Shown here one piece after another: positions 1,300-36,011 of a stretch of 36,527 bases of DNA (its first letter is position 1; each line of letters begins with the position of its first letter). Both the position numbers and the translations under genes were made by a program. The notes under the pieces are model-generated. The model saw nothing but the letters and a program-made list of their open reading frames with translations, was not told the DNA's origin and did not search any database. This stretch comes from a virus. Location of the stretch: IMG/VR virus record IMGVR_UViG_3300042691_003728, positions 1 through 36,527 of that record. One strand, written 5' to 3'.

Positions 1300-2844
1300 A
1301 TGTCAGACACTATAGTCAAAAATTTAAACTTTGGTAAAGATGCCAGAGACAAAGTGTTCAGTGGAATAGAAAAACTAGCTAAAGCAGTTAGTTCTACATT
1401 AGGAGCAAGTGGTAAATGTGTTCTTTTAGAAGATTCTACCGGAAGACCTATAATCACAAAAGATGGTGTAACAGTTGCTGATTCTATTATTCTGTTAGAT
1501 CCAGTAGAAAATATGGGTGCTACGTTATTAAAAGAAGCAGCTAGAAAAACTGTTAGAGAAGCTGGTGACGGAACGACTACCGCGACAGTATTAGCTCACG
1601 CTATTTTAAAGAATGCTTATGCTGTTGAAAATCCTAATGAAAGAAAAATAAAAGAAGGTATAAATTCAGCTGTAGAAAAAGTAATTAAGTATCTAGATGA
1701 TTCTAAAATTACAGTTGACGACAACATGCTAGATCAAATCGCAACTATATCTACAAACAATGATCCAGAACTTGGAAAATTAGTTGGTGATGCATTTAGA
1801 TCTGTTGGTAATACAGGTGTTGTTATGATGGAAAGTTCTTCTGATCCTGAATGTAGTTTAGAATTAGTAGAAGGTATACAATGTAGCATGGGATTAAAGA
1901 ATATGCATTTTGTAACTAATCAAAAATCTAAAACAGCAGAATTAGATAATCCATTAGTTTTATTAGTTGAATCACCTATAGATACTATAAGACAATTACA
2001 AACTATATTAGAGTATGTTATAAAGTCAAATAGATCATTACTAATAGTTGCTGATATGGAACATATTCCTTTATCTACTTTAGCAATGAATAGGTTAAAA
2101 GGAAATATAAAAGTAAACGTTATAGATGCACCGGTTTTTGGTGTTAATAGAAAAGAAATATTTGATGATTTAGCTTTATTGACAGGAGCGGTTGTTATTA
2201 ATGAAGATCTAGGGGATGATTTAGATTTGATACAACCTGAAATGTTAGGTACTTGTGCTAAAAGCGTTACTAGTCAAGAAGAAACGATATTGCATATAGA
2301 AGAAATTCCTGAAAGCGTTTTAGAGATTATAGATAATATAAAACAATCATTATTAGAAAATAATCCAGCTAATAAGGTTATAAAACTAGAAAAAAGATTA
2401 GCTAGATTAACAGGTAAGATTGCTTTAGTAAAAGTTGGTGCTAATTCTGAAATAGAATTAAAAGAGAAAGCAGATAGGATTGAAGATGCTATTTGTGCTA
2501 CCAAGGCTGCTATTAAAGAAGGTATCGTACCAGGTGGAGGAATTGCTTTATTAAATGCTTCTCACGATATAGGCACATCTTCTATAGGTGAAGAAATACT
2601 GTTAGATTCTATTAGAGCACCTTTTAAAACAATACTAGATAATGCAGGTATAGAAAATGCTCCATTAGAAATAATATTTAAAACAGGATATGGTCTTAAT
2701 GTTATAACAGGAGAGACTGTTAATATGATTGAGGCTGGAATAGTTGATCCGTTACTTGTAACAAAAAGTGCTTTAAGAAATGCTGCGTCTGTAGCTACTA
2801 CGATTTTATCAACTGATTGTGTAATTAATAATTTAAGAGCATAA
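1300..2844 (+). CDS. groEL: Phage-encoded chaperonin GroEL (Hsp60)
   Basis: A 514-residue group I chaperonin, slightly shorter than the usual about 548 because the C-terminal GGM-repeat tail is missing (it ends TDCVINNLRA). Signature segments are intact: ITKDGVTVAD with D55 (Escherichia coli D52), AGDGTTTATVLA with D90 (E. coli D87), RIEDAICATKAA with D396 (E. coli catalytic D398), IVPGGGIALL, and the C-terminal ALRNAASVATT. The ATP-binding and hydrolysis residues are therefore present and the protein is probably an active ring ATPase. It forms a TAATG junction with groES and belongs to the late operon, so it probably folds phage structural proteins. The middle (apical) domain is visibly the most divergent part. 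Start is the ATG after an A/T-rich leader. Confidence 0.95.
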   Translation: MSDTIVKNLNFGKDARDKVFSGIEKLAKAVSSTLGASGKCVLLEDSTGRPIITKDGVTVADSIILLDPVENMGATLLKEAARKTVREAGDGTTTATVLAHAILKNAYAVENPNERKIKEGINSAVEKVIKYLDDSKITVDDNMLDQIATISTNNDPELGKLVGDAFRSVGNTGVVMMESSSDPECSLELVEGIQCSMGLKNMHFVTNQKSKTAELDNPLVLLVESPIDTIRQLQTILEYVIKSNRSLLIVADMEHIPLSTLAMNRLKGNIKVNVIDAPVFGVNRKEIFDDLALLTGAVVINEDLGDDLDLIQPEMLGTCAKSVTSQEETILHIEEIPESVLEIIDNIKQSLLENNPANKVIKLEKRLARLTGKIALVKVGANSEIELKEKADRIEDAICATKAAIKEGIVPGGGIALLNASHDIGTSSIGEEILLDSIRAPFKTILDNAGIENAPLEIIFKTGYGLNVITGETVNMIEAGIVDPLLVTKSALRNAASVATTILSTDCVINNLRA

Positions 2845-3104
2845 TGGAAGCTGTTGGTAAATGTTTAGTTATAAAAAAGATAAAAGAAGGAATTACCAAA
2901 ACTAAAGGTGGATTACTTCTTGCTGAGAACCAAAGAGAAGATATTAGATATGTCGAAGCAGAAGTAGTATCAACTGGAGAAGAAGTTCCAGTGATTAAAT
3001 CAGGTGATAAGATATTTTACGATAGACATGCTGGTCATAAACTTGATATAGATAAAGAAACGTATTATGTTATAAAACTAACTGATGTGGTTGTTCGTTT
3101 GTGA
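2844..3104 (+). CDS. groES: Phage-encoded co-chaperonin GroES (Hsp10)
   Basis: An 86-residue Cpn10-type protein directly coupled to groEL by a TAATG overlap. It has the order expected for GroES: an N-terminal strand (VGKCLVIKKI), a mobile loop with the hydrophobic tripeptide GGLLL at residues 22-26 (E. coli GGIVL) that docks on the GroEL apical domain, the VEAEVVSTGEEV strand pair, a KSGDKIFYD strand, and a C-terminal ITD-like VIKLTDVVVRL. It is about ten residues shorter than the bacterial family and would cap the phage GroEL ring. Adjacent and coupled location strongly supports a dedicated GroEL/ES pair rather than a T4 gp31-style replacement of host GroES. Confidence 0.9.
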   Translation: MEAVGKCLVIKKIKEGITKTKGGLLLAENQREDIRYVEAEVVSTGEEVPVIKSGDKIFYDRHAGHKLDIDKETYYVIKLTDVVVRL

Positions 3105-5337: not shown

Positions 5338-5652
5338 ATGGCTTTTATAATGAAAGGTTTCCCATACAATATAGATAACACACCTATATATAATACTGAT
5401 ATGGATGATAATATTCTTGGTATGGCACAAAATAATGGTACTATATTAGTAAATAAAAATGTTTCTCCATTAGAGTTAAAGAAAAGCAAAACTATAGAAC
5501 ATGAAAAAGTACATATAGATCAAATGAAAAGAGGAGATTTAAATTATACTGATAGTCATGTTACTTGGAAGGGAAAGAAATATCCACGTTCTAAAATGAA
5601 AGAAGGAGCTAAAAATCTTCCTTGGGAAAAAGAAGCATATAAAAAACAATAA
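5338..5652 (+). CDS. Minimal HExxH zinc-metallopeptidase-like protein
   Basis: A 104-residue protein with H55-E-K-V-H59 (TIEHEKVHIDQM), the zinc-binding and catalytic motif of zincin peptidases. About 38 residues downstream is LPWEKEAY, where E97 (or E99) is a candidate third zinc ligand as in gluzincin-type arrangements. Between them is WKGKKY, a block I associate with small phage DUF4157-like or minigluzincin proteins. There is no signal peptide. It lies inside the cluster of small motif-bearing genes, so processing of those proteins or of virion precursors is a reasonable hypothesis. Activity depends on the third ligand, which is inferred. Confidence 0.65.
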   Translation: MAFIMKGFPYNIDNTPIYNTDMDDNILGMAQNNGTILVNKNVSPLELKKSKTIEHEKVHIDQMKRGDLNYTDSHVTWKGKKYPRSKMKEGAKNLPWEKEAYKKQ

Positions 5653-7400: not shown

Positions 7401-7624
7401 TGGAATATATTTACCGAAAGATAAGCATCGGCCCGGATTATAAGAATGAAGCAATGCATTATTCTATTGGACAGCAAGTGTATGGAGGTCATGAAATTAC
7501 TCATATAATAAAACAAGAGGATAAATCTTGTATTATATATATAAAGAGTGGAGATGAGATTAAACCTTGGAAGGAATTTTATCCTACTATGGCAATCGCT
7601 CTTGAATTTGATTTAGAATACTAA
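7400..7624 (+). CDS. Small conserved-type phage protein (74 aa)
   Basis: A 74-residue protein translationally coupled on both sides by TAATG junctions. It has an N-terminal block MEYIYRKISIGPDYKNEAMH, a beta-hairpin-like QQVYGGHEITHI and KSCIIYIKSGDE, then KPWKEF. It is probably a small beta-barrel or SH3-like fold. Upstream of terminase genes this position is often taken by small neck or packaging proteins, but no function can be assigned. Confidence 0.6.
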   Translation: MEYIYRKISIGPDYKNEAMHYSIGQQVYGGHEITHIIKQEDKSCIIYIKSGDEIKPWKEFYPTMAIALEFDLEY

Positions 7625-8232
7625 TGAGAAGTGTATTTGACTTCATAGTTAAACCTGTAGGTGATAGATATAATAATAAAATTAAATTAGAGGATAAAGA
7701 ACTAATATTAAATACTAATATAGAAAGTTTTAAATCCGTAAATAATATTGCAGAAGTAATAGCGGTACCACTTGCGTATTCAACTGATATAAAAGTTGGA
7801 GATATAGTAGTTATTCACCATAACGTGTTTAGAGTATTCTATGATATAAGAGGTGAAAAGAAAAATAGTAGATCATACTTCATGGATGATTTATACTTTT
7901 GTAGTTTAGATCAAATTTATCTATACAAAAATACAGGTAAATGGAAAGCTTTTGGTGACAGATGTTTTATTAAACCAATTAAAAACAATGATTATTTAAA
8001 GACAGATAAGGAACAAAAGCTTATTGGTATACTTAAACACGGAAATAGTTCCTTAGAAGCGCTTAAAATAAATGAGGGAGACCTTGTTGGATATACTCCT
8101 TATGGAGAGTTTGACTTTGTTATTGATGGGCAAAGACTTTATTGTATGAAATCTAATGATATTGTAATTAAATATGAATATAAAGGAAACGAAGCAGAAT
8201 ATAATCCAAGCTGGACACGCAGCAGTACTTGA
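7624..8232 (+). CDS. Tandem GroES-fold (Cpn10-like) phage protein
   Basis: A 202-residue protein with two successive Cpn10-like halves. Domain 1 (about residues 5-105) has DFIVKPVGDRYNN, EVIAVPL, STDIKVGDIVVIHHNVFRV and a C-terminal SLDQIYLY. Domain 2 (about 110-187) has DRCFIKPIK, LIGILKHG, LKINEGDLVGYTP and KSNDIVIKYEYKG. These match the GroES order of N-terminal RP/KP strand, VxAVG strand, KVGD(I/L)V turn and xxxDI(L/V)A/IK strand. A GGIVL-type mobile loop is not obvious, so it may use the fold structurally rather than as a GroEL cap. It sits directly before the terminase genes and is separate from the groES at 2844. Similar proteins are familiar in marine phage contigs. Chaperone activity is unproven. 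Confidence 0.7.
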   Translation: MRSVFDFIVKPVGDRYNNKIKLEDKELILNTNIESFKSVNNIAEVIAVPLAYSTDIKVGDIVVIHHNVFRVFYDIRGEKKNSRSYFMDDLYFCSLDQIYLYKNTGKWKAFGDRCFIKPIKNNDYLKTDKEQKLIGILKHGNSSLEALKINEGDLVGYTPYGEFDFVIDGQRLYCMKSNDIVIKYEYKGNEAEYNPSWTRSST

Positions 8233-8449
8233 ATTAATTAAAGTAGCTGAAGAAGCTATTTTAGATAATGGAGATGATGACTTAGCTGCGGATAAATTAA
8301 AGAACGCTGCTGCAACAAAGAAATTAGCTATATTTGATGCGTTTGAAATACTTGCAAGAATACAAGAAGAAGAAAGATTATTATTAGAAAGTGACAAGGA
8401 GGTTGAAGCAAAAGTATTTAAAGGTTTTGCAGAAGGGAGATCTAAATAA
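8174..8449 (+). CDS. Candidate small terminase subunit (TerS)
   Basis: A 91-residue, almost wholly helical protein (AADKLKNAAATKKLAIFDAF, then EILARIQEEERLLLE). Its ATG at 8174 lies inside the previous gene, giving a 59-nt overlap in another frame; no other ATG is available downstream before the conserved region. It is coupled by TAATG to the large terminase gene. Its location, small size and helical content fit a small terminase, which recognises phage DNA and activates packaging. No helix-turn-helix is certain, so this is a positional inference. Confidence 0.6.
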   Translation: MNIKETKQNIIQAGHAAVLELIKVAEEAILDNGDDDLAADKLKNAAATKKLAIFDAFEILARIQEEERLLLESDKEVEAKVFKGFAEGRSK

Positions 8450-10674
8450 TGTACGAACAAAGTTTATATAAAGTAATACCTGATTATGTTAAATCTAGTG
8501 TTATTAAACAAAATAATAGATTAAACAAATGGAAATATGGATATAATAAAGACCATGATCTGGTTGTTATTAGTAAGACTGGAAAGATCGGTGAAATACT
8601 TGAAATCCAAAATTTAAAGATAGCTTTACCTCTTGCTGAAAATGTTTACTCTAGATCAAATAAAAAAGAAGATCAATATTGGCAACCTATAGAATATCCA
8701 AAAGAACTTAGTAAGATTAAAAACACTTTTGATTGGAATAAACAAACTGATTTTTTTAAAGAAAAGTGGTACGACTATATAGATAATGAATTTAAATATA
8801 GAGAAGAAGGTTTGTTTTTTTATAATAATGGTAAACCTACTTATGTAACTGGAAGTCATTATATGTACTTACAATGGAGTAAGATAGATGTTGGTTTACC
8901 TGATTTTAGAGAATCAAATAGATTATTTTTTATATTTTGGGAAGCATGCAAAGCTGATGAAAGATGCTACGGTATGTGTTACTTAAAAAATAGACGTTCT
9001 GGATTTTCTTTTATGTCATCTTCTGAACTAGTTAACCAAGCAACTATATCTAGTGATTCTAGATTTGGTATATTGTCAAAAGCTGGAGCAGATGCTAAAA
9101 CAATGTTTACAGATAAAGTAGTACCTATCTCTATAAACTATCCTTTCTTTTTTAAACCCATACAAGATGGTATGGATAGACCTAAAACAGAATTAGCTTA
9201 TAGAGTGCCAGCTTCTAAATTAACAAGAAGAAAACTAGATTCAAATGATAAGTTAGAGGACTTAGAAGGTTTAGATACTACTATAGATTGGAAAAATACA
9301 GGAGATAACTCTTACGATGGTGAAAAACTAAAATTATTAGTACATGATGAAAGTGGTAAGTGGTTAAAACCTGACAACATATTAAATAACTGGAGAGTAA
9401 CAAAAACATGTTTAAGATTAGGTAGTAGAATCATAGGTAAATGTATGATGGGTTCAACTTCTAATGCTTTAGATAAAGGTGGAGATAATTTCAAAATACT
9501 TTATTACAATTCAGATGTATTAAAAAGAAATAGAAATGGTCAAACAACATCTGGTTTATACAGTTTGTTTATACCTATGGAATGGTCTTATGAAGGATTT
9601 ATCGATATATATGGTTCACCAGTTTTTGATAATCCAGAAAAACCAATAAAAGGTATAGATGGTAATTATATAGATTACGGTGTTATAGAACATTGGCAAA
9701 ATGAGGTTGATGGTTTAAAAAATGATCAAGACGGTTTAAATGAATATTATCGTCAATTTCCTAGAACTGAACAACACGCTTTTAGAGATGAGACAAAACA
9801 ATCTTTATTTAATTTAGTAAAGATATACGAACAGATAGATTATAACGAAGACTTAAGAAATACTAGTGTATTAACACGTGGTAGTTTTCAATGGGAAAAC
9901 GGTATTCAAGACACTAAAGTTATATTTTATCCAAATAAAGATGGTAGATTTTTAGTTTCATGGATACCACCATTTCATCTACAAAATAATATTATATTGA
10001 AAAACGGTATGAAATTTCCTGGTAATGAACATCTAGGTGCTTTTGGATGTGACCCGTATGACATATCTGGAACTGTAGATGGTAAAGGTTCAAATGGAGC
10101 TCTAAGTGGATTAACTAAATTCTCTATGGAAGATGTTCCACCTAATACTTTTTTTCTAGAATATATAGCGAGACCACAAACTGCTGAGATATTTTTTGAA
10201 GATGTTTTAATGGCTTGTGTTTTTTACGGAATGCCTATACTTGCGGAAAACAATAAACCTAGATTATTATATTATTTTAAAAGAAGAGGTTATAGAGGAT
10301 TTTCTATGAATAGACCTGATAAGATATGGAATAATCTATCAATAACAGAAAAGGACATCGGAGGAATACCAAACTCTAGTGAAGATATAAAACAAGCACA
10401 TGCCTCAGCTATAGAATCTTACATAGAAGATTTCGTTGGTTTAAAAGAAGATGGATATGGTAATATGTATTTTAATAGAACCTTAAACGACTGGGCAAGA
10501 TTTAATATAAATGATAGAACAAAATACGATGCTGGTATTAGTTCTGGTTTAGCTATAATGGCATGTAATAAACATAAATACAATCCAGTAGCTTTAGTAG
10601 CTAGACAATCATACGATTTAGGTATAAAAAAATATGATAATACAGGTTATTCATCAAAAATATATAATAAATGA
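8449..10674 (+). CDS. terL: Terminase large subunit (TerL)
   Basis: A 741-residue packaging motor. The ATPase half shows a Walker-A-like NRRSGFS at 181-187 (atypical Arg-rich P-loop as in many TerL proteins), a Walker B LLVHDE at 296-301 with the catalytic E301, and a coupling-like GSTSNALDKGG around 335-345. The C-terminal RNase H-like nuclease half offers D535 (AFGCDPYD), E600 (ILAENNK) and D694 (KYDAGISSGLA) as metal-binding acidic residues. It translocates DNA into the prohead through the portal and cuts concatemers. It is a little longer than typical TerL (500-650) and similar in size to those of crAss-like phages. It overlaps the portal gene by ATGA. Confidence 0.93.
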   Translation: MYEQSLYKVIPDYVKSSVIKQNNRLNKWKYGYNKDHDLVVISKTGKIGEILEIQNLKIALPLAENVYSRSNKKEDQYWQPIEYPKELSKIKNTFDWNKQTDFFKEKWYDYIDNEFKYREEGLFFYNNGKPTYVTGSHYMYLQWSKIDVGLPDFRESNRLFFIFWEACKADERCYGMCYLKNRRSGFSFMSSSELVNQATISSDSRFGILSKAGADAKTMFTDKVVPISINYPFFFKPIQDGMDRPKTELAYRVPASKLTRRKLDSNDKLEDLEGLDTTIDWKNTGDNSYDGEKLKLLVHDESGKWLKPDNILNNWRVTKTCLRLGSRIIGKCMMGSTSNALDKGGDNFKILYYNSDVLKRNRNGQTTSGLYSLFIPMEWSYEGFIDIYGSPVFDNPEKPIKGIDGNYIDYGVIEHWQNEVDGLKNDQDGLNEYYRQFPRTEQHAFRDETKQSLFNLVKIYEQIDYNEDLRNTSVLTRGSFQWENGIQDTKVIFYPNKDGRFLVSWIPPFHLQNNIILKNGMKFPGNEHLGAFGCDPYDISGTVDGKGSNGALSGLTKFSMEDVPPNTFFLEYIARPQTAEIFFEDVLMACVFYGMPILAENNKPRLLYYFKRRGYRGFSMNRPDKIWNNLSITEKDIGGIPNSSEDIKQAHASAIESYIEDFVGLKEDGYGNMYFNRTLNDWARFNINDRTKYDAGISSGLAIMACNKHKYNPVALVARQSYDLGIKKYDNTGYSSKIYNK

Positions 10675-13064
10675 TAATACAGACAAATCCAAATAGTTCT
10701 TTTCCTAGTCAGGTAGTACCTAATGAGGTGAAAGATTCTGTAGATTATGGGTTACAAGTTTCTTTCGCTATAGAACAAGAATGGTTTGATCAAGGCAGAA
10801 CTAATCAAAATAGATACTTAACAAGTTGGAATAATTTTCATCAATTAAGACTATATGCTAGAGGAGAACAATCTACTCAGAAGTATAAAGATGAAATGGC
10901 TATTAATGGTGATTTATCATATTTAAATATAGATTGGAAACCAGTACCAATTATATCAAAGTTTGTTGACATAGTTGTTAATGGTATGTCAAATAAGACT
11001 TATGACATAAAAGCTTATGCTCAAGATCCAGAGTCTACAAAACAAAGAACAGCATACGCTAAAGCAGTTCTTAGAGATATGTACTCTCAAGATTTAATTT
11101 CAAAAGCACAAGAATTAACAGGTATTGACTTTTCGTCTTCTCCACTATCAAAAGAAGAACTTCCTACAAATAAAGAAGAACTTGACTTACACATGCAGTT
11201 GACTTATAAACAATCTATAGAGATTGCAGAAGAAGAAGCTATAAATAATGTGTTAGCGAACAATAAATGGGATTTAATAAGAAGAAGATTAAATTATGAT
11301 TTAACAGTACTTGGAATAGCTTGTTCTAAAACTAGTTTTAATATAAGTGAAGGAATTAAAACTGAGTATGTTGATCCAGCATACTTAATTTATTCATATA
11401 CCGAAGATCCTAACTTTGAAGACATATATTATGTTGGAGAAGTAAAAGCAGTTACAATACCTGAATTAAAAAAGCAATTCCCTGATATTAGTGAAGAAGA
11501 ATTAGATAGGATTCAGAAAATGCCAGGAAATAGACAATATATAACTGGTTGGGGTAATTACGACGAGAATACCGTTCAAGTATTATATTTCGAATATAAA
11601 ACATATAGAAATCAAGTATTTAAAATAAAACATGGAGATAATGGACTTGAAAAAGTTATAGAGAAATCAGATGATTTTAATCCTCCAGAAAATGATAAGT
11701 TTGAAAAAGTATCTAGAAGTATAGAAGTATTATATACAGGTGCTAAAATACTAGGTACTCAAATGATGTTAGAATGGAAAATGTCTGAAAATATGACAAG
11801 ACCATTTGCTGATACTACAAAGGTACAGATGAATTATGTTATATCTGCGCCTAGAATGTACAAAGGTAGAATAGATTCTATAGTTAATAGAATAACTGGT
11901 TTTGCCGACATGATTCAAATAACTCATTTAAAACTACAACAAGTAATGTCTAAAATAGTACCTGATGGTGTATTTTTAGATGTTGATGGTTTAATGGAAG
12001 TTGATCTAGGTAATGGTACTAAATACAATCCAGCAGAAGCATTAAATATGTATTTCCAAACTGGTAGTATAGTTGGTAGATCAATGACACAAGAAGGAGG
12101 AATGAATCCTGGTAAAGTGCCAATACAAGAATTAACTAGTTCTTCTGGTCAATCAAAAATGGCAGCTTTAATACAGAATTACCAATATTACTTACAAATG
12201 ATAAGAGATGTCACAGGTTTAAATGAAGCCCGTGATGGAAGTATGGTTGAAAGAGATACTTTAGTTGGTTTACAAAAAATGGCTGCTAACGCATCTAATA
12301 CTGCTACCAAACATATACTACAAACTAGCATGTATTTGACTCTTAGAATATGTGAGAATATATCATTAAGAATTGCTGACTGTTTAAATTTTCCGTTAAC
12401 AGCAAAAGTCTTAGAGGAAAGTGTAACTACTTACAATACTAATACTTTAGATGAGATAAAGAAATTAAACTTGCATGATTTTGGTATATATTTAGAATTA
12501 GAACCAGATGAAGAAGAGAAACAAATGCTTGAACAAAATATACAAGTAGCTCTTCAAAGTGGAAGTATAGATCTAGATGATGCTATAGATATAAGACAGG
12601 TTAAGAATTTAAAGTTAGCTAACCAGTTGTTAAAGTTAAGAAAGACTAAGAAACAACAAATGGCTCAAGAGTCTCAAATGAGAAACATACAGGCTCAAGC
12701 AGAAGCTAATCAGCAAACCGCTCAACAAGCTGCATTGTTTGAAGTTCAAAAACAACAAGCATTAACTCAAGAGACTATAAATATAGAAAGAGCTAAGTCA
12801 CAGTTTGAAATACAAAAACTACAAACTGAATTACAATTAAAAATGCAATTAGCGGAACAACAATTCCAATATAACATGCAGTTAGAACAATTAAAGTCTC
12901 AAACACAAAGTCAAAATCTACAATTAGCAGAAGACAGAAAAGACGAGAGAACTAGAATACAAGCAACACAACAGTCGGAACTAGTTAATCAAAGAAATAA
13001 TAATTCATTACCACAAAGTTTTGAATCTGCTTCTTTCACTGGTTTAGATGAATTTGATGTTTAA
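10671..13064 (+). CDS. Portal protein
   Basis: A 797-residue protein immediately after terL with a 4-nt overlap. It opens with a tail-proximal region (EQEWFDQGRTNQNRYLTSWN), then DWKPVPIISKFVDIVVNGM, a classic portal-type segment, and a central MKMSEN/ISAPRMYKGRIDSIVN stem-and-clip part. Residues about 650-765 are an exceptionally Gln-rich coiled coil (QAQAEANQQTAQQAALFEVQ), matching the long C-terminal barrel of P22-type portals. It forms the dodecameric DNA entry ring at one capsid vertex. Position between terL and scaffold/capsid is decisive. Confidence 0.88.
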   Translation: MIIQTNPNSSFPSQVVPNEVKDSVDYGLQVSFAIEQEWFDQGRTNQNRYLTSWNNFHQLRLYARGEQSTQKYKDEMAINGDLSYLNIDWKPVPIISKFVDIVVNGMSNKTYDIKAYAQDPESTKQRTAYAKAVLRDMYSQDLISKAQELTGIDFSSSPLSKEELPTNKEELDLHMQLTYKQSIEIAEEEAINNVLANNKWDLIRRRLNYDLTVLGIACSKTSFNISEGIKTEYVDPAYLIYSYTEDPNFEDIYYVGEVKAVTIPELKKQFPDISEEELDRIQKMPGNRQYITGWGNYDENTVQVLYFEYKTYRNQVFKIKHGDNGLEKVIEKSDDFNPPENDKFEKVSRSIEVLYTGAKILGTQMMLEWKMSENMTRPFADTTKVQMNYVISAPRMYKGRIDSIVNRITGFADMIQITHLKLQQVMSKIVPDGVFLDVDGLMEVDLGNGTKYNPAEALNMYFQTGSIVGRSMTQEGGMNPGKVPIQELTSSSGQSKMAALIQNYQYYLQMIRDVTGLNEARDGSMVERDTLVGLQKMAANASNTATKHILQTSMYLTLRICENISLRIADCLNFPLTAKVLEESVTTYNTNTLDEIKKLNLHDFGIYLELEPDEEEKQMLEQNIQVALQSGSIDLDDAIDIRQVKNLKLANQLLKLRKTKKQQMAQESQMRNIQAQAEANQQTAQQAALFEVQKQQALTQETINIERAKSQFEIQKLQTELQLKMQLAEQQFQYNMQLEQLKSQTQSQNLQLAEDRKDERTRIQATQQSELVNQRNNNSLPQSFESASFTGLDEFDV

Positions 13065-14283: not shown

Positions 14284-15741
14284 ATGGCAAATGTATCGCC
14301 TGTATTCGGTTCAATTAAACCGTCTCAAAAACAACAAACGTTAGAATCAAACTATTTAAATTTTACAGATGGTAGTGATAATAACTTTGCACAGCAATAT
14401 TTACCAGAAATCTACGAAGCTGAAGTAGAGCGTTATGGAAACAGAACGTTATCTGGATTTTTAAGAATGGTAGGCGCTGAAATGCCTATGTCTTCTGATC
14501 AAGTAGTTTGGTCTGAGCAAAATAGATTACATATCGCTTATAACGATGTTTCTTGTGATAGTGCAACTCAATTAAGTTTTACTACTGGTGGAACTGGTAA
14601 GAACTTCGTTAACAACGTTATCTCTGTAGGGCAAACTTTGGTAGTAATGAGTCCTTCTACAGGAAAAGAACTTAAAGTTTATGTAACAACTTCAACTGCA
14701 AATCCTGCTACAGGTGTTGGAGGAGCTACAAACCCTGCTGTTTTAGAAGTTAAACCTTATACTCAAGCTACTTTAGTTAGTGGACCAGTTGATTTTACTG
14801 ATGCTACTGATCTTAAAATCTTCGTATATGGTTCTGAATTTAGAAAAGGAACTACAGATGAGACTATAAACTCTGTTACTCCTTCATTTACTCAGTACAG
14901 TAACTCTCCTATTATAATCAAAGAAAGATACCAAATCTCTGGATCAGACACCGCTCAAATTGGTTGGGTTGAAGTTGCTACAGAAGATGGAGCTGGTGGT
15001 TTCTTATGGTATTTAAAAGCAGAATCTGAAACTCGTTTACGTTTTGAAGATTACTTAGAAATGTCAGTTATTGAAGGTGAATTAGTGTCTGGAGGTTCTA
15101 CTTTATTTAGCGGTAACAACATTAAAGGTACTGAAGGTTTATTCTCTGCTATTAGAGATAGAGGTAATGTTGTAAACAACTTCTCTGCTGCTTCTGGTAT
15201 TAATGATTTTGATTCAATATTGAAAAACTTAGATACTCAAGGAGCTATAGAAGAAAACATGTTGTTCTTAAATAGAGCTACATCTTTAGAGTTTGATGAT
15301 ATGTTAGCATCTTTATCTTCTGGTTCTGCTGGTGGTGTTGCTTACGGTTTATTTGAAAACTCTGAGCAAATGGCATTGAACTTAGGTTTCTCTGGTTTCC
15401 GTCGTGGATCTTATGATTTCTACAAAACAGACTGGAAATACTTAAATGATGCATCTACTCGTGGTGGTGTTGCTAACGCTTCTATCGATGGAGTACTTGT
15501 TCCTGCTGGTACAGCTACTGTTTACGATCAACAATTAGGCACTAACATCCGTAGACCTTTCTTACACGTTCGTTATAGAGCTAACCAAGCTGACGATAGA
15601 AGAATGAAGTCTTGGATCACTGGATCTGTTGGAGGTGCTTATACTTCTGATTTAGATGCAATGCAAGTACACTTCTTATCTGAAAGATGTTTAGTTACTC
15701 AAGGAGCTAACAACTTCGTATTGTTCACTGCAACAGTATAA
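14284..15741 (+). CDS. Major capsid protein
   Basis: A 485-residue protein following the scaffold. It has an N-arm-like start (NVSPVFGSIKPSQKQQTLES), the block SGFLRMVGAEMPMSSDQVVW that I recognise from capsid proteins of Bacteroidota marine phages, and a long spine-helix candidate around YLKAESETRLRFEDYLEMSV. The C-terminal P-domain-like region includes RRPFLHVRYRANQADDRR. An HK97-type fold is expected. Codon choice favours AAC, TTC and CGT, unlike most other genes here, consistent with very high expression. A GC-rich hairpin follows the stop. No prohead protease gene is adjacent. Confidence 0.88.
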   Translation: MANVSPVFGSIKPSQKQQTLESNYLNFTDGSDNNFAQQYLPEIYEAEVERYGNRTLSGFLRMVGAEMPMSSDQVVWSEQNRLHIAYNDVSCDSATQLSFTTGGTGKNFVNNVISVGQTLVVMSPSTGKELKVYVTTSTANPATGVGGATNPAVLEVKPYTQATLVSGPVDFTDATDLKIFVYGSEFRKGTTDETINSVTPSFTQYSNSPIIIKERYQISGSDTAQIGWVEVATEDGAGGFLWYLKAESETRLRFEDYLEMSVIEGELVSGGSTLFSGNNIKGTEGLFSAIRDRGNVVNNFSAASGINDFDSILKNLDTQGAIEENMLFLNRATSLEFDDMLASLSSGSAGGVAYGLFENSEQMALNLGFSGFRRGSYDFYKTDWKYLNDASTRGGVANASIDGVLVPAGTATVYDQQLGTNIRRPFLHVRYRANQADDRRMKSWITGSVGGAYTSDLDAMQVHFLSERCLVTQGANNFVLFTATV

Positions 15742-27418: not shown

Positions 27419-30400
27419 ATGGAAGAAATTTATATATTAGAAGACGGTTCACAGGTTGACATTTCAGATTATTCTCAATTTGAAAAAACAAATTTTTTGT
27501 TAAAAAACCCAGGTGCAAAAAAGACAAAAGGTGCAACAAAGAGTGCTGTTGTTGTACCAAAGAAGAATCAAGCACTAAACAAAGATACGGAATCCAAGTC
27601 AAAGACTGGTTCTTCGGTTTCACAAAAACAATTTAGATTACCACAGGAACAAGATTTCCAAATAATGCAGCAGAAAAGAGGATTACTTCCTCCGCCTTCT
27701 GCAACTGCTACTTCTTACGAGGTTCCTACAGCAGAAAATCTTTATGATTTACAAGGTAATATCGGTGTTAAGAAAAAAAGTTCTAAATATAAAACAGAGA
27801 AAATAACAATACCTGGTCAAGAACCTACTAGAGAGTGGAAAGATTCTTTTTTAAAATTACAAAAAAAATCTAAAGCAATAACACCAGAAGAACTTCGCAA
27901 AGAGTTATATGACTTAAAACCAAGTGGTGAACGTGTTAATAGCGAGGAAGAGATTCGTAATGTTAGAAAAAAGATAAACCAAACAGACTCTGATCTAGAA
28001 CATCCTTATCTTTATTACTCTATTGAAAAACAAAAACAATCTCCAGATACTTTTGTACAAGACAACTACAATATAAAAGAATTATCTGAAGCGGGTATAA
28101 ATGTACAAGACTTTGATGGTTTCTTAAATAAGAAAGGATATAAAGAAGACTTCATAAAGAAACAATCACAAGGTCTATTTGAAGGAAAAGGAGATAATAT
28201 ACATGGTTATGATGTACAGTTAGCTAATGAACTAGCTAAAAAGAAAATGATGGACATGTATATGGAAGATATGCAAAGAAGAGACTTTGTAAAACAAGAT
28301 TTATATCAAGAAATACCATTGATAATGGGTGATATAAAGGAAAAGTCTATAAATAAAAATCAAATATTTGATCAAAACAAAACTTTATCTTACATTGAAA
28401 AAAACTTTCCGACTTTAACTAAGAAGTTAAAAGAGAAAGATAAGGAAAACGCTAGATTATACGAAGAAGCAAAAAGTGGTGGCACTGATTTCTTTTCTTG
28501 GGATACTCTTGGTAAGATAGGTAGTTCTGGTTGGAATGCAATATCAGATAGATTAGTACAGACAAGCGCGATTGTATACGACGTCTTAGGAATGGAAGAA
28601 ACTGCTGAAGGAGCTAGAATGTTAGATGAACAAAATCAGTTCTTAAAACCAAACGATAGAGGCGTTTCTTATGTGTCAGGTAAGACAGTTGAGGACGATG
28701 GAACTAAATATATAGTTGATCGAAAAGGAGAGATCTACGATGCAGATTCAAAGATAGTTGTAACTGACTTATTTAATGAGAAAAAATATAACGAATTAGT
28801 AGAAAAATCTAAATTCGGTCAATCTGATTATATATTTAGTGTACAAGGTGCCGCTGTTCAAACATCAGGTGTTATGGCTGATATGCTAGTTCAAGCAGCT
28901 CTTTCACGTGGTATTGGAGCAGGTGGCGCTATAGCTTCTGAAGCAAGAGTAGCGTTAAACGCAACTAGACAAAATAGTAAAGTCGTGTCTGTTTTAAATG
29001 ATTCTTCTAAGTTGTTAAGAAAAATACCAATGGATAGAGCTACTGGATATTCTATGATAGCTCAAGGGACTTTAGGTTACACACAAGGATATGAAGATAC
29101 TTTAAAAGCAGCTAGAGAAGCAGGTATAAATGATAAAGAAGCGTTTAAACTTGCTACTAACGCTGGCCAAAGAATGGCTATATTGTATTCTACCACTGGT
29201 GTTATAAACCCACAAACAAATGTTGCTGATAACATATTTGGTTCTAAAAACTTAATTAACAAAGCAATACAACAATACACTAAAACTGGTGAAAAAGGTT
29301 TTGTTAAGTATTTTGATGATATAATAAAAAACACACCTAGAAATTTAATAGAATTTGCTGAAGAAGGTGGTAAAGAGGTTATACAAGAAAATATACAACA
29401 AGCAGGTGAGATAGGTATTAATAGACTAACAAACATAGACGCTGGTAAAAAGATAATGAATGAAGTTATGTCAGGTGACGACTTTATGAATACTTCTATT
29501 TTATCTTTTATATCTTCTGGTTTAATATCAAAAGCTAAAATACCTACTTTTTTTAATAAAGATAACGCTAAAGATGATCTACGTGCTTTAAGTACTTTGT
29601 CTAAGAACAAAAATGAGTTTGAAAAAGTAATAACCAACTTGGTTGATAGTAAAGTTTTCACTCAAGAACAAAGTGACAAGTTAAAAGAAGACGTAAACAT
29701 ATATACTAATAATTCTAATAAAGTTCCTAAAAACATATCTGCAGAAATAGCGATGCCTGTTATGCGAGAGTTAGATAAGATTAGAAAGCTAAATGATCAA
29801 AAGAAAGGTGTAGATAAAGCTTTTCACGAAGAAATAGACGAGCAAATTGATGATACTACAGATAAAATAAAGAAAATGTTCTATGCTGATAGGCTTAGAG
29901 TGAAAAATGAACAAGTATCAAATGCTATAAAAAAAGGTGTAGTAAAAAATACTCAAATGTTAAACTTTGCTACTACTAATGAATTAAGAGACTATCTTAA
30001 AACAGAGATGAACATGTCTGATGCTGATGCTACTTATATGGCTAAGCAAGGTGGATTCATGTTAGATGAAAGTGCTATTCGTAAATTTTCAAAAGATCCT
30101 TCTAGTGTAACAAAAGGTCAAAAATTATTATTTGTAAATGAAGCAGTTGCTTCTACTCTTGGCACAACAGAAGTAGGTAGACATGAATTCTTACATGGTT
30201 TAATATTTGAAACAATAAAGGACAGTCCAGAAGCACAACAGTTATTAGGAAAAGCTTTATCTATGGAATTGATGAAGATGAAGGACTTGACTGATGCTGC
30301 TGGCAAAGGCGAAATACCTCTACCAAAATCTTTTGTTCAAAGATTCGGTCAATATGTTAATAAATATCAACAACATATAGCCCAAGCTAAAGCACAACTA

Positions 30401-33400
30401 GAATTAGGTTCTATAGACCAACAAGAATACGATGCAAAAGTAGATACTTATTTGGGTAATCAATGGGAAGAAGTACTAACTTTATACTCAGATGCTATTA
30501 GCAGTGGACAAGTGAAATATGATGAAGGTGTTTTTGTCAAATTAAAAGACACCGTGAGAAGAGTTTTACAGTATTTAGGTCTGAAAGATGTAGAGTTCAA
30601 ATCTGGTAAAGATGTTTATAATTTTATAAAAGATTACAATAAAAGCATGGACTCGGGTAACTGGGGTAAAGCTATGAAAAAAGTTGGTAATCAAGGTGCT
30701 ATGATTGATATAGAATCACTAAGAAAAGAAACAAAAGCATCAAAAACAAAAGTTCAAGAAAAAAGCAAATCAGATTTTCAAACTGATGCTAAATTTTCTC
30801 TTGGAGAAAGAAAGTCTTCAGAAGAAATAAAAAAAGATATAAATAGTAAGTATAATAAAGAGCAATGGAGTCAAGGTCATAATGACAAAGGAGAAAACCA
30901 AAATATAAATAGAGTTTTATACGATATACTTAGTGAATACGATTATATAATAAAAGGTAAATCAAAAGGATTAGGGTACAATAACCTACCTGACTTCAGT
31001 GAAATGGACATGGTTAGTGAAACTCAACTAGCATTGATACCACATATTCGTAATTTTAACAAAGAGTTTTTTCAAAAAAGAGAAGAATATAAAAAAGAAC
31101 TAGAATCAAAAGGTTTAGATCCTAAAAGTAAGGAGTTTAAAGATAAAGTAGAAGCACAAGACGAAAAAGGTTATCAAGGTAAAAAAGGCATAGTAAAAGA
31201 AAATAAAGACCTTAACGCTTGGATAAATTCACAGTTATTAAACAAAATGAAGGTCGCTTTAAACACTGGAAATGTAACTACTCAGAAGTTCACGGAGGAT
31301 ATAGAAGGTGAGATGTTTAAAGAAACTAAAATCATCGATGGCTATGGAGGTGATGAGAGTTATTTAATGGACGAAGGAGATAACATATTTGAACAACAAA
31401 ACGACTATGAAGTAGAACAAAGTGAATTAGTTACTTTATTGAGTGATCCAATATTTAGGTTTGTTGATGAAGATGGTGAACTAATAAGTATTGAAACAGT
31501 ACCTTTTGGTAGTTTTTATGTTACAGAAGTATCAGATCCAACTATAGCGGCTAATAAGAAACTTAGAACAGAAACTGACCCAAAAATAATAGAGGAATTA
31601 AAAAACCAATTAAAAGATTTAGAAAGAGGATTAGAATTACAACAGAAAGAAGAACTTACTTTTGAAGAAAAAGAAGAATTAAAAAGTTTAAAATCTTTTA
31701 AGTCTTACGATCTTTCTACGGGTATGATGGTTAATACGTTTAAAGCTTTATCTGTACAAGATGTACCAGCTAAAATAATAACTGATGAAGTTTCTAGAGA
31801 GATACTAAGATCACCTAATATAGAAACATTAGAGTATAGAAACTTTAAAGAAAAATTATCTGACCTATCTAAAACAATGTCTAGAAGAATGACGTTTAAG
31901 AATGGTCCTGAGATAGAATCTTTTATGTATAATAATTGGGAGTTGATATATGACGTTATAAATCACCCAGTAGATCCGGTTACAGGACAATCAAGTTATG
32001 CATCTAAAAAACTTCCACCAAGATTAAAAGAATTTGATGAGAAAGGAAATTTAAAGAAAATAGATAAAATAACTAGAGTTAAATTTCTACAATCTTTCTA
32101 CGGAATAGAAGAAGCGACTCGTATAATTAATACCTATGGAGGTAAAAATGCTAGTAAAGAATTAGTAGAACTAGAAGAACAAGAAACAAATGAAAAAACA
32201 GGTAGAGGTTTAGTACCTACTGCTTATTTTGACAGACGAACAGCATTAATGGAGTTGTTCGGTGATGTTATGGTTTTACAAGAAGCCAGAAGATTACTTA
32301 GACAACCTGATTTTCTAGAAAGTATAAAAAGTAAAAATGTAAATTTATATAACGAACTTAAAGATGACATTACTAGAACCAAGGTCTTAAACGATATGGC
32401 TAAAGGTAAAAGTGATATAGTTAAGTTTAGTTTAGCTGAAGAGCAAAATGGTGATATATCAACATTCTTAGGTGGTTTGTTGTTTGGAGAACAATGGGTT
32501 GTAGCTAGAGATATAGATAGCGCTATATTAAAATCAAAAATACCTGATGGTACAAAAGTAACATTTAAAGTACCTAGTAGATCTAAGTTCTCAGATAAAT
32601 CAACGGCTTATTTTATAATTAGTAAAATCGCTGAAGGATATAATGATTTTGAATTTACTGTAAAGAAAAATGCTAACGGACCTTTAACTAAACAAGTTCT
32701 AGATGCATTAGATCAAAAATCTAAGAAATACCAAGAAACATTAGATATGAATAATAATCTCGAGAGAACAATGAACGAGATTATAGAAGTAAATAAAGGT
32801 GTTAGCGCTGAAGAAAAAATATCTCCAGAGACTGCTAAAAACTTAGGTAAGAACGTAGGTAAATATGATATATTTTTACCACCTGAAGATGAAGATTTCT
32901 TAGGTTTGCTATACACACTAGCTTCGGCAAAAGGTTTAGAAGGTGAAAAACAAATGAAATTTCTTGTAGACAATCTATTAAAACCATATAGTGATGCCAT
33001 GCTTAATTTAATGAGAGCAAGACAGACAATGTATAAAGACTGGAAAGAACTAGTTAATAAGAAACACAAAGGAATAAGCAAAGTATTAAAACAAGATTCT
33101 GGTTATGGTGGTTACTTGGTAGATCAAGCTGTTAGGGTTTATTTATGGTCTGCTGCAGGTTATGAAATACCTGGTTTAGATAAAAAAGATTTATTTAATC
33201 TAAGAGAAGTGGTGAGAACGAATAAGCAATTAAGAGATTTTGCTCAAGATGTTTCTTTGTTGTCTAAACAAGCAAATGGTTATATAGAACCAGATCATAA
33301 TTGGGGTCTAGGAAGTGTTGTTGGTGACATGAATAATATCATATCTAAAACAAATAGAAAGAAATACTTAGAGCATTGGCAACATAACGCTGATAAGATA

Positions 33401-34795
33401 TTCTCTAAAGATAACATGAGTAAAATTGAAGCTGTTTATGGTAGAGGTTTTGCTAAGTCATTAGACAACATGTTAAAGAGAATGAAATCAGGTACAAATA
33501 GAACAGAAGGCGCTTCAGATACATTCCTAAACTGGATAAATGGATCTACTGCTGTTACCATGTTCTTAAACATGAGATCAGCGGTATTGCAAACAATAAG
33601 TTCTGTTAACTTTATAAATACTACAGACAACAATATATTAAAAGCTGGAAAAGCTTTATTGAATGTTCCTCAATACATGGAGGACTTTTACACTATATGG
33701 AACTCTGAGTATTTAAAAGATAGAAGATCTGGTTTAATGAATGACGTTGCTGAAGCTGAATTAGCTCAGATGATGAATGATCCTAGAAATAAAAGTGTTT
33801 TAGATAAATTTAAATCAGGAACATATTGGTTACTTAAAAATGGATTTATGCCAACTAGATTAGCAGATAGTTTCGCGATATCTTTTGGTGGTGCTGGATT
33901 CTATAGAAATAGAATAAAAACATATTTAAAACAAGGAGAAACACAAGAAGAAGCACATCATTTGACTATGCGTGATTTCTATGAAATATCTGAGGTATCA
34001 CAACAATCAGCAGACGTTTCTAAAATATCTATGAATCAATCTAGTATAAAAGGTAGATTAGTATTAGCTTTCCAAAATACTCCTTTGCAGTACTCTAGAA
34101 TCATAAAGAAATCTGTTGTTGATTTAGTTAAAGGAAGAGGTAGCGCACCAAATAATATAGCTAAAATAGTTTATTACTCTACTATTCAGAATATGTTATT
34201 TAACTTCATGCAAAATGCTTTGTTCTCTATGTTTTGGGACGATGAAGATGAAGAAGGTAAATACGAGTCCGCGTCTATGAGAGCAGTGAATGGAACTATG
34301 GATACCTTATTAAGAGGAGCAGGTTTTAAAGGTGCTTTATTAGCCACAGTTAAAAATGCTATTGTGAAGTGGTATGAGAAAAGTGGTGATCCAAAAGGTT
34401 ATGGAGACGTTTTGCTAGAGTTTGCAAACGTTGCACCGTCAATAGGTATTAAAGCAAGGTCTCTTGTTAAGTCATACAAAGCTGTTGAATATAATAGAGA
34501 TGAAATAACTTACAAAGGATTTAGTACTGATAACACTTATGCCATAGAAGCTTTGACATCTTTAACTTCAGCCGGAACTAATGTACCAGTAGATAGAATT
34601 TATCAGAAAGTACAGAATGTATCTAACGCTATGAATTCTGACTTTGAAACATGGCAGAGAGTAGCATTCTTACTTGGATATAACAAATATAATCTAGGTT
34701 TAAAAGATGAATCTAAACCAATAAAAATGGATTCTAAGTTTAATTTAAACTTACCAGGTGTTTCAGCACCAACGTTGAAATTACCAAATCAATAA
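27419..34795 (+). CDS. Giant internal/ejection polyvalent protein with HExxH domain
   Basis: A 2458-residue protein, the largest here. Residues 1-300 are basic and polar. About 480-700 is a hydrophobic helical region with EFAEEGGKEVIQENIQQAGE. H922-E-F-L-H926 is a zincin motif, with E1017/E1018 in QWEEVLTLYSD a candidate third ligand. About 1150-1285 is a helical segment with sigma-region-2-like character (MVSETQLALIPHIRNF and LNAWINSQLLNKM). About 2035-2280 is membrane-active, including FQNTPLQYSRIIKKS and QNMLFNFMQNALFSMF. KFSLGE (1125) and KFSLAE (1669) separate the sections. Such large polyvalent proteins are ejected into the host. Roles of individual domains are inferred. Confidence 0.75.
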   Translation: MEEIYILEDGSQVDISDYSQFEKTNFLLKNPGAKKTKGATKSAVVVPKKNQALNKDTESKSKTGSSVSQKQFRLPQEQDFQIMQQKRGLLPPPSATATSYEVPTAENLYDLQGNIGVKKKSSKYKTEKITIPGQEPTREWKDSFLKLQKKSKAITPEELRKELYDLKPSGERVNSEEEIRNVRKKINQTDSDLEHPYLYYSIEKQKQSPDTFVQDNYNIKELSEAGINVQDFDGFLNKKGYKEDFIKKQSQGLFEGKGDNIHGYDVQLANELAKKKMMDMYMEDMQRRDFVKQDLYQEIPLIMGDIKEKSINKNQIFDQNKTLSYIEKNFPTLTKKLKEKDKENARLYEEAKSGGTDFFSWDTLGKIGSSGWNAISDRLVQTSAIVYDVLGMEETAEGARMLDEQNQFLKPNDRGVSYVSGKTVEDDGTKYIVDRKGEIYDADSKIVVTDLFNEKKYNELVEKSKFGQSDYIFSVQGAAVQTSGVMADMLVQAALSRGIGAGGAIASEARVALNATRQNSKVVSVLNDSSKLLRKIPMDRATGYSMIAQGTLGYTQGYEDTLKAAREAGINDKEAFKLATNAGQRMAILYSTTGVINPQTNVADNIFGSKNLINKAIQQYTKTGEKGFVKYFDDIIKNTPRNLIEFAEEGGKEVIQENIQQAGEIGINRLTNIDAGKKIMNEVMSGDDFMNTSILSFISSGLISKAKIPTFFNKDNAKDDLRALSTLSKNKNEFEKVITNLVDSKVFTQEQSDKLKEDVNIYTNNSNKVPKNISAEIAMPVMRELDKIRKLNDQKKGVDKAFHEEIDEQIDDTTDKIKKMFYADRLRVKNEQVSNAIKKGVVKNTQMLNFATTNELRDYLKTEMNMSDADATYMAKQGGFMLDESAIRKFSKDPSSVTKGQKLLFVNEAVASTLGTTEVGRHEFLHGLIFETIKDSPEAQQLLGKALSMELMKMKDLTDAAGKGEIPLPKSFVQRFGQYVNKYQQHIAQAKAQLELGSIDQQEYDAKVDTYLGNQWEEVLTLYSDAISSGQVKYDEGVFVKLKDTVRRVLQYLGLKDVEFKSGKDVYNFIKDYNKSMDSGNWGKAMKKVGNQGAMIDIESLRKETKASKTKVQEKSKSDFQTDAKFSLGERKSSEEIKKDINSKYNKEQWSQGHNDKGENQNINRVLYDILSEYDYIIKGKSKGLGYNNLPDFSEMDMVSETQLALIPHIRNFNKEFFQKREEYKKELESKGLDPKSKEFKDKVEAQDEKGYQGKKGIVKENKDLNAWINSQLLNKMKVALNTGNVTTQKFTEDIEGEMFKETKIIDGYGGDESYLMDEGDNIFEQQNDYEVEQSELVTLLSDPIFRFVDEDGELISIETVPFGSFYVTEVSDPTIAANKKLRTETDPKIIEELKNQLKDLERGLELQQKEELTFEEKEELKSLKSFKSYDLSTGMMVNTFKALSVQDVPAKIITDEVSREILRSPNIETLEYRNFKEKLSDLSKTMSRRMTFKNGPEIESFMYNNWELIYDVINHPVDPVTGQSSYASKKLPPRLKEFDEKGNLKKIDKITRVKFLQSFYGIEEATRIINTYGGKNASKELVELEEQETNEKTGRGLVPTAYFDRRTALMELFGDVMVLQEARRLLRQPDFLESIKSKNVNLYNELKDDITRTKVLNDMAKGKSDIVKFSLAEEQNGDISTFLGGLLFGEQWVVARDIDSAILKSKIPDGTKVTFKVPSRSKFSDKSTAYFIISKIAEGYNDFEFTVKKNANGPLTKQVLDALDQKSKKYQETLDMNNNLERTMNEIIEVNKGVSAEEKISPETAKNLGKNVGKYDIFLPPEDEDFLGLLYTLASAKGLEGEKQMKFLVDNLLKPYSDAMLNLMRARQTMYKDWKELVNKKHKGISKVLKQDSGYGGYLVDQAVRVYLWSAAGYEIPGLDKKDLFNLREVVRTNKQLRDFAQDVSLLSKQANGYIEPDHNWGLGSVVGDMNNIISKTNRKKYLEHWQHNADKIFSKDNMSKIEAVYGRGFAKSLDNMLKRMKSGTNRTEGASDTFLNWINGSTAVTMFLNMRSAVLQTISSVNFINTTDNNILKAGKALLNVPQYMEDFYTIWNSEYLKDRRSGLMNDVAEAELAQMMNDPRNKSVLDKFKSGTYWLLKNGFMPTRLADSFAISFGGAGFYRNRIKTYLKQGETQEEAHHLTMRDFYEISEVSQQSADVSKISMNQSSIKGRLVLAFQNTPLQYSRIIKKSVVDLVKGRGSAPNNIAKIVYYSTIQNMLFNFMQNALFSMFWDDEDEEGKYESASMRAVNGTMDTLLRGAGFKGALLATVKNAIVKWYEKSGDPKGYGDVLLEFANVAPSIGIKARSLVKSYKAVEYNRDEITYKGFSTDNTYAIEALTSLTSAGTNVPVDRIYQKVQNVSNAMNSDFETWQRVAFLLGYNKYNLGLKDESKPIKMDSKFNLNLPGVSAPTLKLPNQ

Positions 34796-35261: not shown

Positions 35262-35451
35262 CTTCAGTTTTTATTTTTGATTTTTCAGTAACTATATTTA
35301 TAGCATGTTCATAACCAGGCATTTCTCTTACTACTTGGTAGGTTCCAACAGTCATTGTTTTAGTATTATCAATTTCACCTAACATGAATTCAACAATCCT
35401 TGACAACGACTCTATTTTATTTTGCATTTCTATTAACTTACTTTCTTTCAT
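35179..35451 (-). CDS. Small conserved-type phage protein with N-terminal helix (90 aa)
   Basis: A 90-residue protein. An N-terminal coiled helix (LIEMQNKIESLSRIVEFMLG) is followed by GTYQVVREMPGYEHAI, a block I recognise in small proteins near nucleotide-metabolism genes of related phages, and then a Lys/Asp/Thr-rich disordered tail. Its ATG overlaps the upstream oxygenase stop by ATGA. Function unknown; multimerisation through the helix is plausible. Confidence 0.62.
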   Translation of the reverse strand: MKESKLIEMQNKIESLSRIVEFMLGEIDNTKTMTVGTYQVVREMPGYEHAINIVTEKSKIKTEDDKQTNVTETKSNSKKDTKDKVNSIQY

Positions 35452-36011
35452 TTTTTTATTTTATAAAACATTACAAATACAACTCTATTATCTATAAACT
35501 CATTTGGGTATTTACTATGGAAATAATTACATGGATAAGATATTAATCTATTTTGTTTATGACCAATAATGGATTTTAAATCCCACAAATCTAAATCATT
35601 AGCATCTTCAATTAATAATCTGTTTTGTTCTTCAATACTTGCATTTTTAAATCTATCTCCGTGTTTCTTATGTTCCCAAAAAGCTGTACCATGTAAACCA
35701 CTTTGTTTAGTATCAGATATGTATAAAACACAAGCTCTATCAGGTTGTTCTCCTTCTATTATAGAATCATTATGAATACGCCAATCATTGTCTTGGTCTT
35801 CTTTAGCTTCTCTTAGAAATCCTAATATAGGTTCTATTCTATTATGTTCTAAATGTTCAATCTCAAATTTTATAATGTCCATTATTGGATTAGGAATCTC
35901 TTTAACCCAAAAGGATTTTCCAGGAGTTTTTATTTCCTGGAATTTATCCTTATTAGAGTTCAACAAGTTAATTAAATTTATATCTAAAAAATCATCCTTT
36001 ATATATATCAT
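35448..36011 (-). CDS. 2OG-Fe(II) oxygenase-like protein
   Basis: A 187-residue protein with the 2-oxoglutarate/Fe(II) dioxygenase facial-triad pattern: H80-N-D82 (WRIHNDSIIEGE), distal H165 (CNYFHSKYP) and R176 (DNRVVFVMFY) as the likely 2OG-binding residue. The double-stranded beta-helix strands RACVLYISD and GTAFWEHKKHG lie between. Such oxygenases are common in marine phages, and hydroxylation of a protein or nucleobase is the usual suggestion. It is coupled by ATGA overlaps to the ribonucleotide reductase gene upstream and the small protein downstream. Confidence 0.75.
   Translation of the reverse strand: MIYIKDDFLDINLINLLNSNKDKFQEIKTPGKSFWVKEIPNPIMDIIKFEIEHLEHNRIEPILGFLREAKEDQDNDWRIHNDSIIEGEQPDRACVLYISDTKQSGLHGTAFWEHKKHGDRFKNASIEEQNRLLIEDANDLDLWDLKSIIGHKQNRLISYPCNYFHSKYPNEFIDNRVVFVMFYKIKK

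Follow-up and report, generated by a model that had tools for sequence, protein, structure and literature searches.

A giant phage protein with conserved KFSL marks at its module junctions is probably a self-processing polyprotein

A stretch of 36,527 bases from IMG/VR virus record IMGVR_UViG_3300042691_003728, in the following called the window, was analysed. It encodes a giant protein in which two KFSL marks lie between the modules. The marks recur at the same junctions in relatives, and a predicted zincin-like domain precedes the first of them on the same chain. We consider the giant to be, with fair likelihood, a phage polyprotein of the 'polyvalent protein' type that processes itself; its marks would be cut by the embedded zincin. 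This reading draws on sequence comparisons and structure models. The idea had been put forward in an earlier note on this DNA. Its HEFLH at residue 922, KFSLGE at residue 1125 (30791-30808) and KFSLAE at residue 1669 (32423-32440), as well as its expected fragments of about 1125, 545 and 790 residues, were confirmed from the translation of the open reading frame. The features discussed below are the following.

27419..34795, + strand: giant protein ORF (ATG start, 2458 residues, 278.7 kDa, without internal stop; full-length relatives L001-L004)
27419..30790, + strand: N-terminal section, residues 1-1124, containing the HExxH domain and a variable linker (alignment A4, 12 IMG/VR loci)
29906..30703, + strand: predicted zincin-like metallopeptidase domain, approximately residues 830-1095, limits approximate (AF2 model and HExxH conservation)
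30182..30196, + strand: HEFLH, residues 922-926, predicted zinc site (H, E, F and H columns invariant in 27 relatives)
30464..30472, + strand: WEE, residues 1016-1018, candidate third zinc ligand (Glu), invariant in 27 relatives
30791..30802, + strand: mark KFSL of junction 1 (J1), residues 1125-1128 ([KR]F[STA][LIM] in relatives; pLDDT < 50)
30803..32422, + strand: middle module, residues 1129-1668 (alignment A2, 33 IMG/VR loci; AF2 pLDDT 74, no PDB match)
32423..32434, + strand: mark KFSL of junction 2 (J2), residues 1669-1672 (marks in relatives; site of module insertion; pLDDT < 50)
32486..32743, + strand: probable HAD-like domain remnant, approximately residues 1690-1775 (motif alignment with sister giants)
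32744..34792, + strand: conserved, mostly helical C-terminal module, approximately residues 1776-2458 (A3, 462 matching IMG/VR stretches)

Genomic setting and modules of the giant protein

The giant ORF is the final gene of the structural block. Genes for the terminase (8449-10674), the portal (10671-13064), a capsid protein (14284-15741) and more virion proteins are followed by an acetyltransferase-like gene, two further genes and then the giant. Terminase and capsid protein match those of Flavobacterium, Cellulophaga and Maribacter phages, and by these two proteins the phage is placed near Maribacter phage Panino, the Flavobacterium elemo phages, Cellulophaga phi38:1 (Pervagoviridae) and the metagenomic MW202828. 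Since counterparts at the same gene position are annotated as structural proteins, the giant is probably carried in the virion. Searches of the giant against Pfam, PHROGs, NCBIfam and PDB sequences gave no usable match, and tblastn with the giant and with modules of two relatives gave none among isolated phages. Elsewhere in the window (1300-3104), a GroEL gene (514 residues) adjoins a GroES-like gene (86 residues), a pair that is also present in MW202828 and the elemo phages; the product of another gene, at 7624-8232, is weakly similar to Cpn10, and a 187-residue protein at 35448-36011 (- strand) matches DUF6445 slightly under the cut-off.

The full-length search returned four relatives of 2443-3215 residues. 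The modules A2, A3 and A4 are combined differently across relatives, so that the giant is a large, multi-module, mosaic protein as polyvalent proteins are. No Pfam family, including the recognised LPD, MPTase and other polyvalent domains, was found at the cut-off in five members; a search for LPD38 gave no match here nor in the controls and is hence uninformative.

In the AF2 model of residues 712-1145 (mean pLDDT 88), three strands are followed by the HExxH helix and by a later helix which bears the invariant E1017/E1018. The HEFLH motif is thus predicted to lie in a helix after a small beta-sheet, as expected of a zincin, and the order of strands and helices fits the description of the MPTase domain in PMC5512222. 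HExxH was kept in all 39 homologous domains of the sister giants, which share the C-terminal module only. The domain has no match in Pfam, and Foldseek found no significant fold match (best E 2.9 in the PDB and 0.015 in BFVD). With no significant match to a solved or predicted viral structure, the term zincin rests on motif and topology. The HEFLH domain is presumably an active protease, a zinc metallopeptidase.

The earlier note had called the middle section sigma-like and the C-terminal section membrane-active, and neither label was supported: the middle section has no Pfam match, its model gave nothing significant by Foldseek and it lacks similarity to sigma-70 regions, and in the C-terminal section the highest mean hydropathy of any 19-residue window was not above 1.16. 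The C-terminal module has no Pfam or NCBIfam family and was not found in bacterial genomes. Residues 1690-1775 align to the end of the HAD-like domain of the sister giants (DFDDT...LTAR...DD), with motif I missing in the window protein. By these motifs the region is a probable HAD-like remnant; Pfam gave no confirmation for it. A HAD-like domain (DFDDT, LTAR, DD) precedes the C-terminal module in sister giants, among them those of loci L059 and L104; the family of the window protein has just the remnant at this place.

Conservation of the marks and insertion of modules

The close family was defined as the giants bearing the middle module (n=27 once near-duplicates were removed). The earlier note had proposed a motif survey in homologues, with absence at the same boundaries as the finding that would speak against its idea. 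The marks were present: [KR]F[STA][LIM] was found at J1 in 25 of the 27 relatives, the other two having a degenerate VK[LP]SLGG, and [KR]F[ST][LIMF] at J2 in all 25 relatives that reach this junction. The linker ahead of J1 is highly variable in length and otherwise unconserved, and yet the mark is retained. In the AF2 models, both marks lie in segments with pLDDT < 50 adjoining ordered domains, i. e. in predicted disordered linkers. The junctions are real, conserved and module-delimiting and stand alongside a conserved HExxH domain, so that the claim of marks falling between the sections is borne out. The giant has a recurrent conserved site between its modules, as a self-processing polyprotein should.

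KFSL occurs 45 times in the 27 non-redundant relatives vs 1.8+-1.5 expected from shuffles, a count which does not represent independent events because the relatives share ancestry, and for the same reason binomial values overstate the evidence. On the same contigs, 237 further ORFs contained it three times (1.05 expected). In an unbiased count of 4-mers, KFSL was the one most often present at least three times within one close-family protein. An optional third mark lies roughly 100 residues past J2 in nine relatives. In one giant (L125; residues 1144, 1689, 1742 and 2552), KFTL takes the place of KFSL at three of four marks.

Extra modules were found in seven relatives, all of them exactly at J2. 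They are of three types, namely approximately 760 residues (five relatives), 194 residues (one) and 173 residues (one), which are mutually unrelated (best E between types in BLAST not under 0.4). In all seven proteins the insert has a mark on both sides, the J2 mark at its start and a further mark (KFSL, KFTL, KYSL or RFTL) at its end. The insert of about 760 residues contains one more mark 46-54 residues in, in five of five cases. Examples are residues 1660-2421 of L003, 1680-1873 of L004 and 1674-1846 of L023; the last of these has a weak match to DUF6934 (3e-5) and a match to phrog_6387.

The mark is not a trait of every giant in the superfamily. This was ruled out by 70 related giants that lack the middle module and have the C-terminal module only, where KFSL occurs four times vs 4.3 expected. 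These sister giants are instead rich in [FLM]S[KR][ST] (88 vs 23.9 expected), although this count includes structural matches such as PGLSKTD and LLSKA and is weaker evidence than KFSL. A somewhat broader pattern, [FLM]S[KR][STA], follows the protease in 10 of 22 sister giants; in 18 of 46 it stands ahead of the HAD-like domain. The expectation per window is about 8% in both cases, and a few of the matches are structural. More distant relatives have another variant of the mark or none. Among the nearest isolates, phi38:1 and phi18:3 have neither HExxH nor marks, and elemo gp21 and MW202828 have HExxH and no clear mark. From these comparisons, the mark appears to differ between lineages, shifting jointly at several junctions.

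Could the marks remain uncut and act as docking or packaging tags, or as hinges whose flexibility would help the chain to be threaded through the tail? Such roles would fit with each module being headed by a mark, with the 30 N-terminal residues of P1 DarB that are enough for capsid targeting (PMC9024508) and with the view that cargo proteins are partly unfolded during ejection (PMC10172136). However, the N-terminus of the window giant bears no mark, a hinge needs no specific sequence and a single tag per chain would suffice. We regard this possibility as unlikely.

Marks beside a second protease domain and the origin of the marks

A separate group of polyvalent proteins, from Bcep22-like phages and other phages of proteobacteria, has an HEAFH-type domain. 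Within 60 residues after this domain, [FY]S[LIVMA] was found in 25 of 39 non-redundant proteins vs 8.0% of random windows (binomial 2e-18), and the strict form [KRQ][FY]S[LIVM] in 15 of 39 vs 2.4%; these p-values are optimistic, since anchors and windows were fixed after the pattern had first been seen in five of the proteins. The mark lies nearly always 15-28 residues into the linker. An example is QFSM after the HEAFH domain in Pseudomonas fluorescens SBW25 phage Skulduggery. The rest of the sequence of these 39 proteins contains 36 strict motifs vs 14 expected, often directly ahead of the protease domain. The statement in the earlier note that similar sequences recur in large phage polyvalent proteins was borne out for [KR][FY]S[LIVM], which stands beside the protease domain. 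Past HExxH, no homology was detectable between the peptidase domains of the KFSL family and those of the Bcep22-like group. Thus a common mark would be either very old or convergent.

These data also bear on the question of which enzyme would do the cutting. It could be another protease, of the phage or of the host. We infer the role of the HEFLH domain as the cutter, and it has no fold match in the PDB; moreover, the window encodes a second, small HExxH protein (5338-5652, 104 residues), which by its HEKVH motif may be a metallopeptidase and which has no Pfam match. Yet two separate groups of proteins have the mark directly after an HExxH domain on the same chain, and three polyvalent proteins without HExxH contained 0, 0 and 1 strict motifs. 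That a different protease would do the cutting in place of the embedded one appears rather improbable to us.

In all relatives with Ser as the third residue of the mark, this Ser is encoded by TCN at J1 and by AGT or AGC at J2. Two base changes separate TCN from AGY, and therefore the J1 and J2 marks did not arise by recent copying of a single piece of DNA; a repeat at the DNA level is ruled out as their origin. The codon split argues for selection on the peptide. That the marks are functionless scars of module shuffling, left by a sequence duplicated at the recombination point, is very unlikely: the extra copies at insert edges, most of them with AGT for Ser like J2, would fit, but synonymous codons vary besides the split in codon class, and marks are kept without an insert and at divergence down to approximately 45% identity.

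Taken together, the recurrence of the marks, their disordered linkers, their position at module edges, their multiplication at inserts, their upkeep at the peptide level and the adjoining HExxH are best explained by processing sites. The parts of this evidence that depend less on shared ancestry are the differing Ser codons of J1 and J2, the insertion of three unrelated module types and the marks of the Bcep22-like group. Cutting by the HEFLH domain would take place at KFSL in the flexible linkers, either on its own chain or on another copy of the protein, perhaps before F or before L. This would yield a protease-bearing N-terminal part of approximately 127 kDa, a middle part of 63 kDa and a C-terminal part of 89 kDa. 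New modules could enter at a mark with processing undisturbed, because each module would bring or keep a mark. We infer the marks to be protease substrates, and likewise the timing of the cutting and the carriage in the virion. In a wider and tentative reading, for which we see slightly less than an even chance, [KRQ]-[FY]-S-hydrophobic with lineage-specific variants would serve phage polyvalent polyproteins in general as a processing code, read by embedded zincins and bounding exchanged cassettes, across phages without detectable homology of the protease domains.

Comparison with known systems

Self-processing of polyvalent proteins by an embedded peptidase has already been proposed (Iyer et al. 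2017, PMC5512222), and whether and where zincins cut giant phage proteins has been a standing prediction since then. Like the polyvalent proteins with an MPTase zincin described there, the window giant is very large, is encoded at the end of the structural genes, has a predicted HExxH zincin and shows module mosaicism; unlike them, it has no recognised Pfam LPD or MPTase domain. The parts of that paper covered here describe no cleavage-site motif. No description of the marks and of their movement with modules was found in an open-access subset of the literature, which is not proof of absence. A mark with fixed positions makes the prediction of cutting directly testable and predicts fragments for virion proteomics. 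The marks also help to split otherwise unannotatable giants into modules.

The DarB-like/PLxRFG giants of Bcep22-like phages, e. g. JC1 gp69, which was found in virions by mass spectrometry (PMC9144972), likewise have an HExxH domain, here HEAFH, and after it a variable linker that bears a mark of the RFSV/KFSL type; another mark stands ahead of the HEAFH domain. They differ in their lytic transglycosylase, methylase, helicase, LPD3 and LPD38 domains. The N4 vRNAP gp50 is also a giant podovirus protein with HExxH (HELVH) that is delivered with the DNA; in contrast to the window giant no [KRQ][FY]S[LIVM] was found in it, and PMC5512222 cites it as packaged unprocessed. In P1 DdrB, which has been suggested to be processed, the mark is absent.

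Polyproteins of eukaryotic RNA viruses share the embedded protease and the recurrent short sites between modules, an analogy that is drawn in PMC5512222. Their domains and proteases are unrelated, and processing is established there and predicted for the window giant, which would thus offer a bacterial-virus parallel to polyprotein processing.
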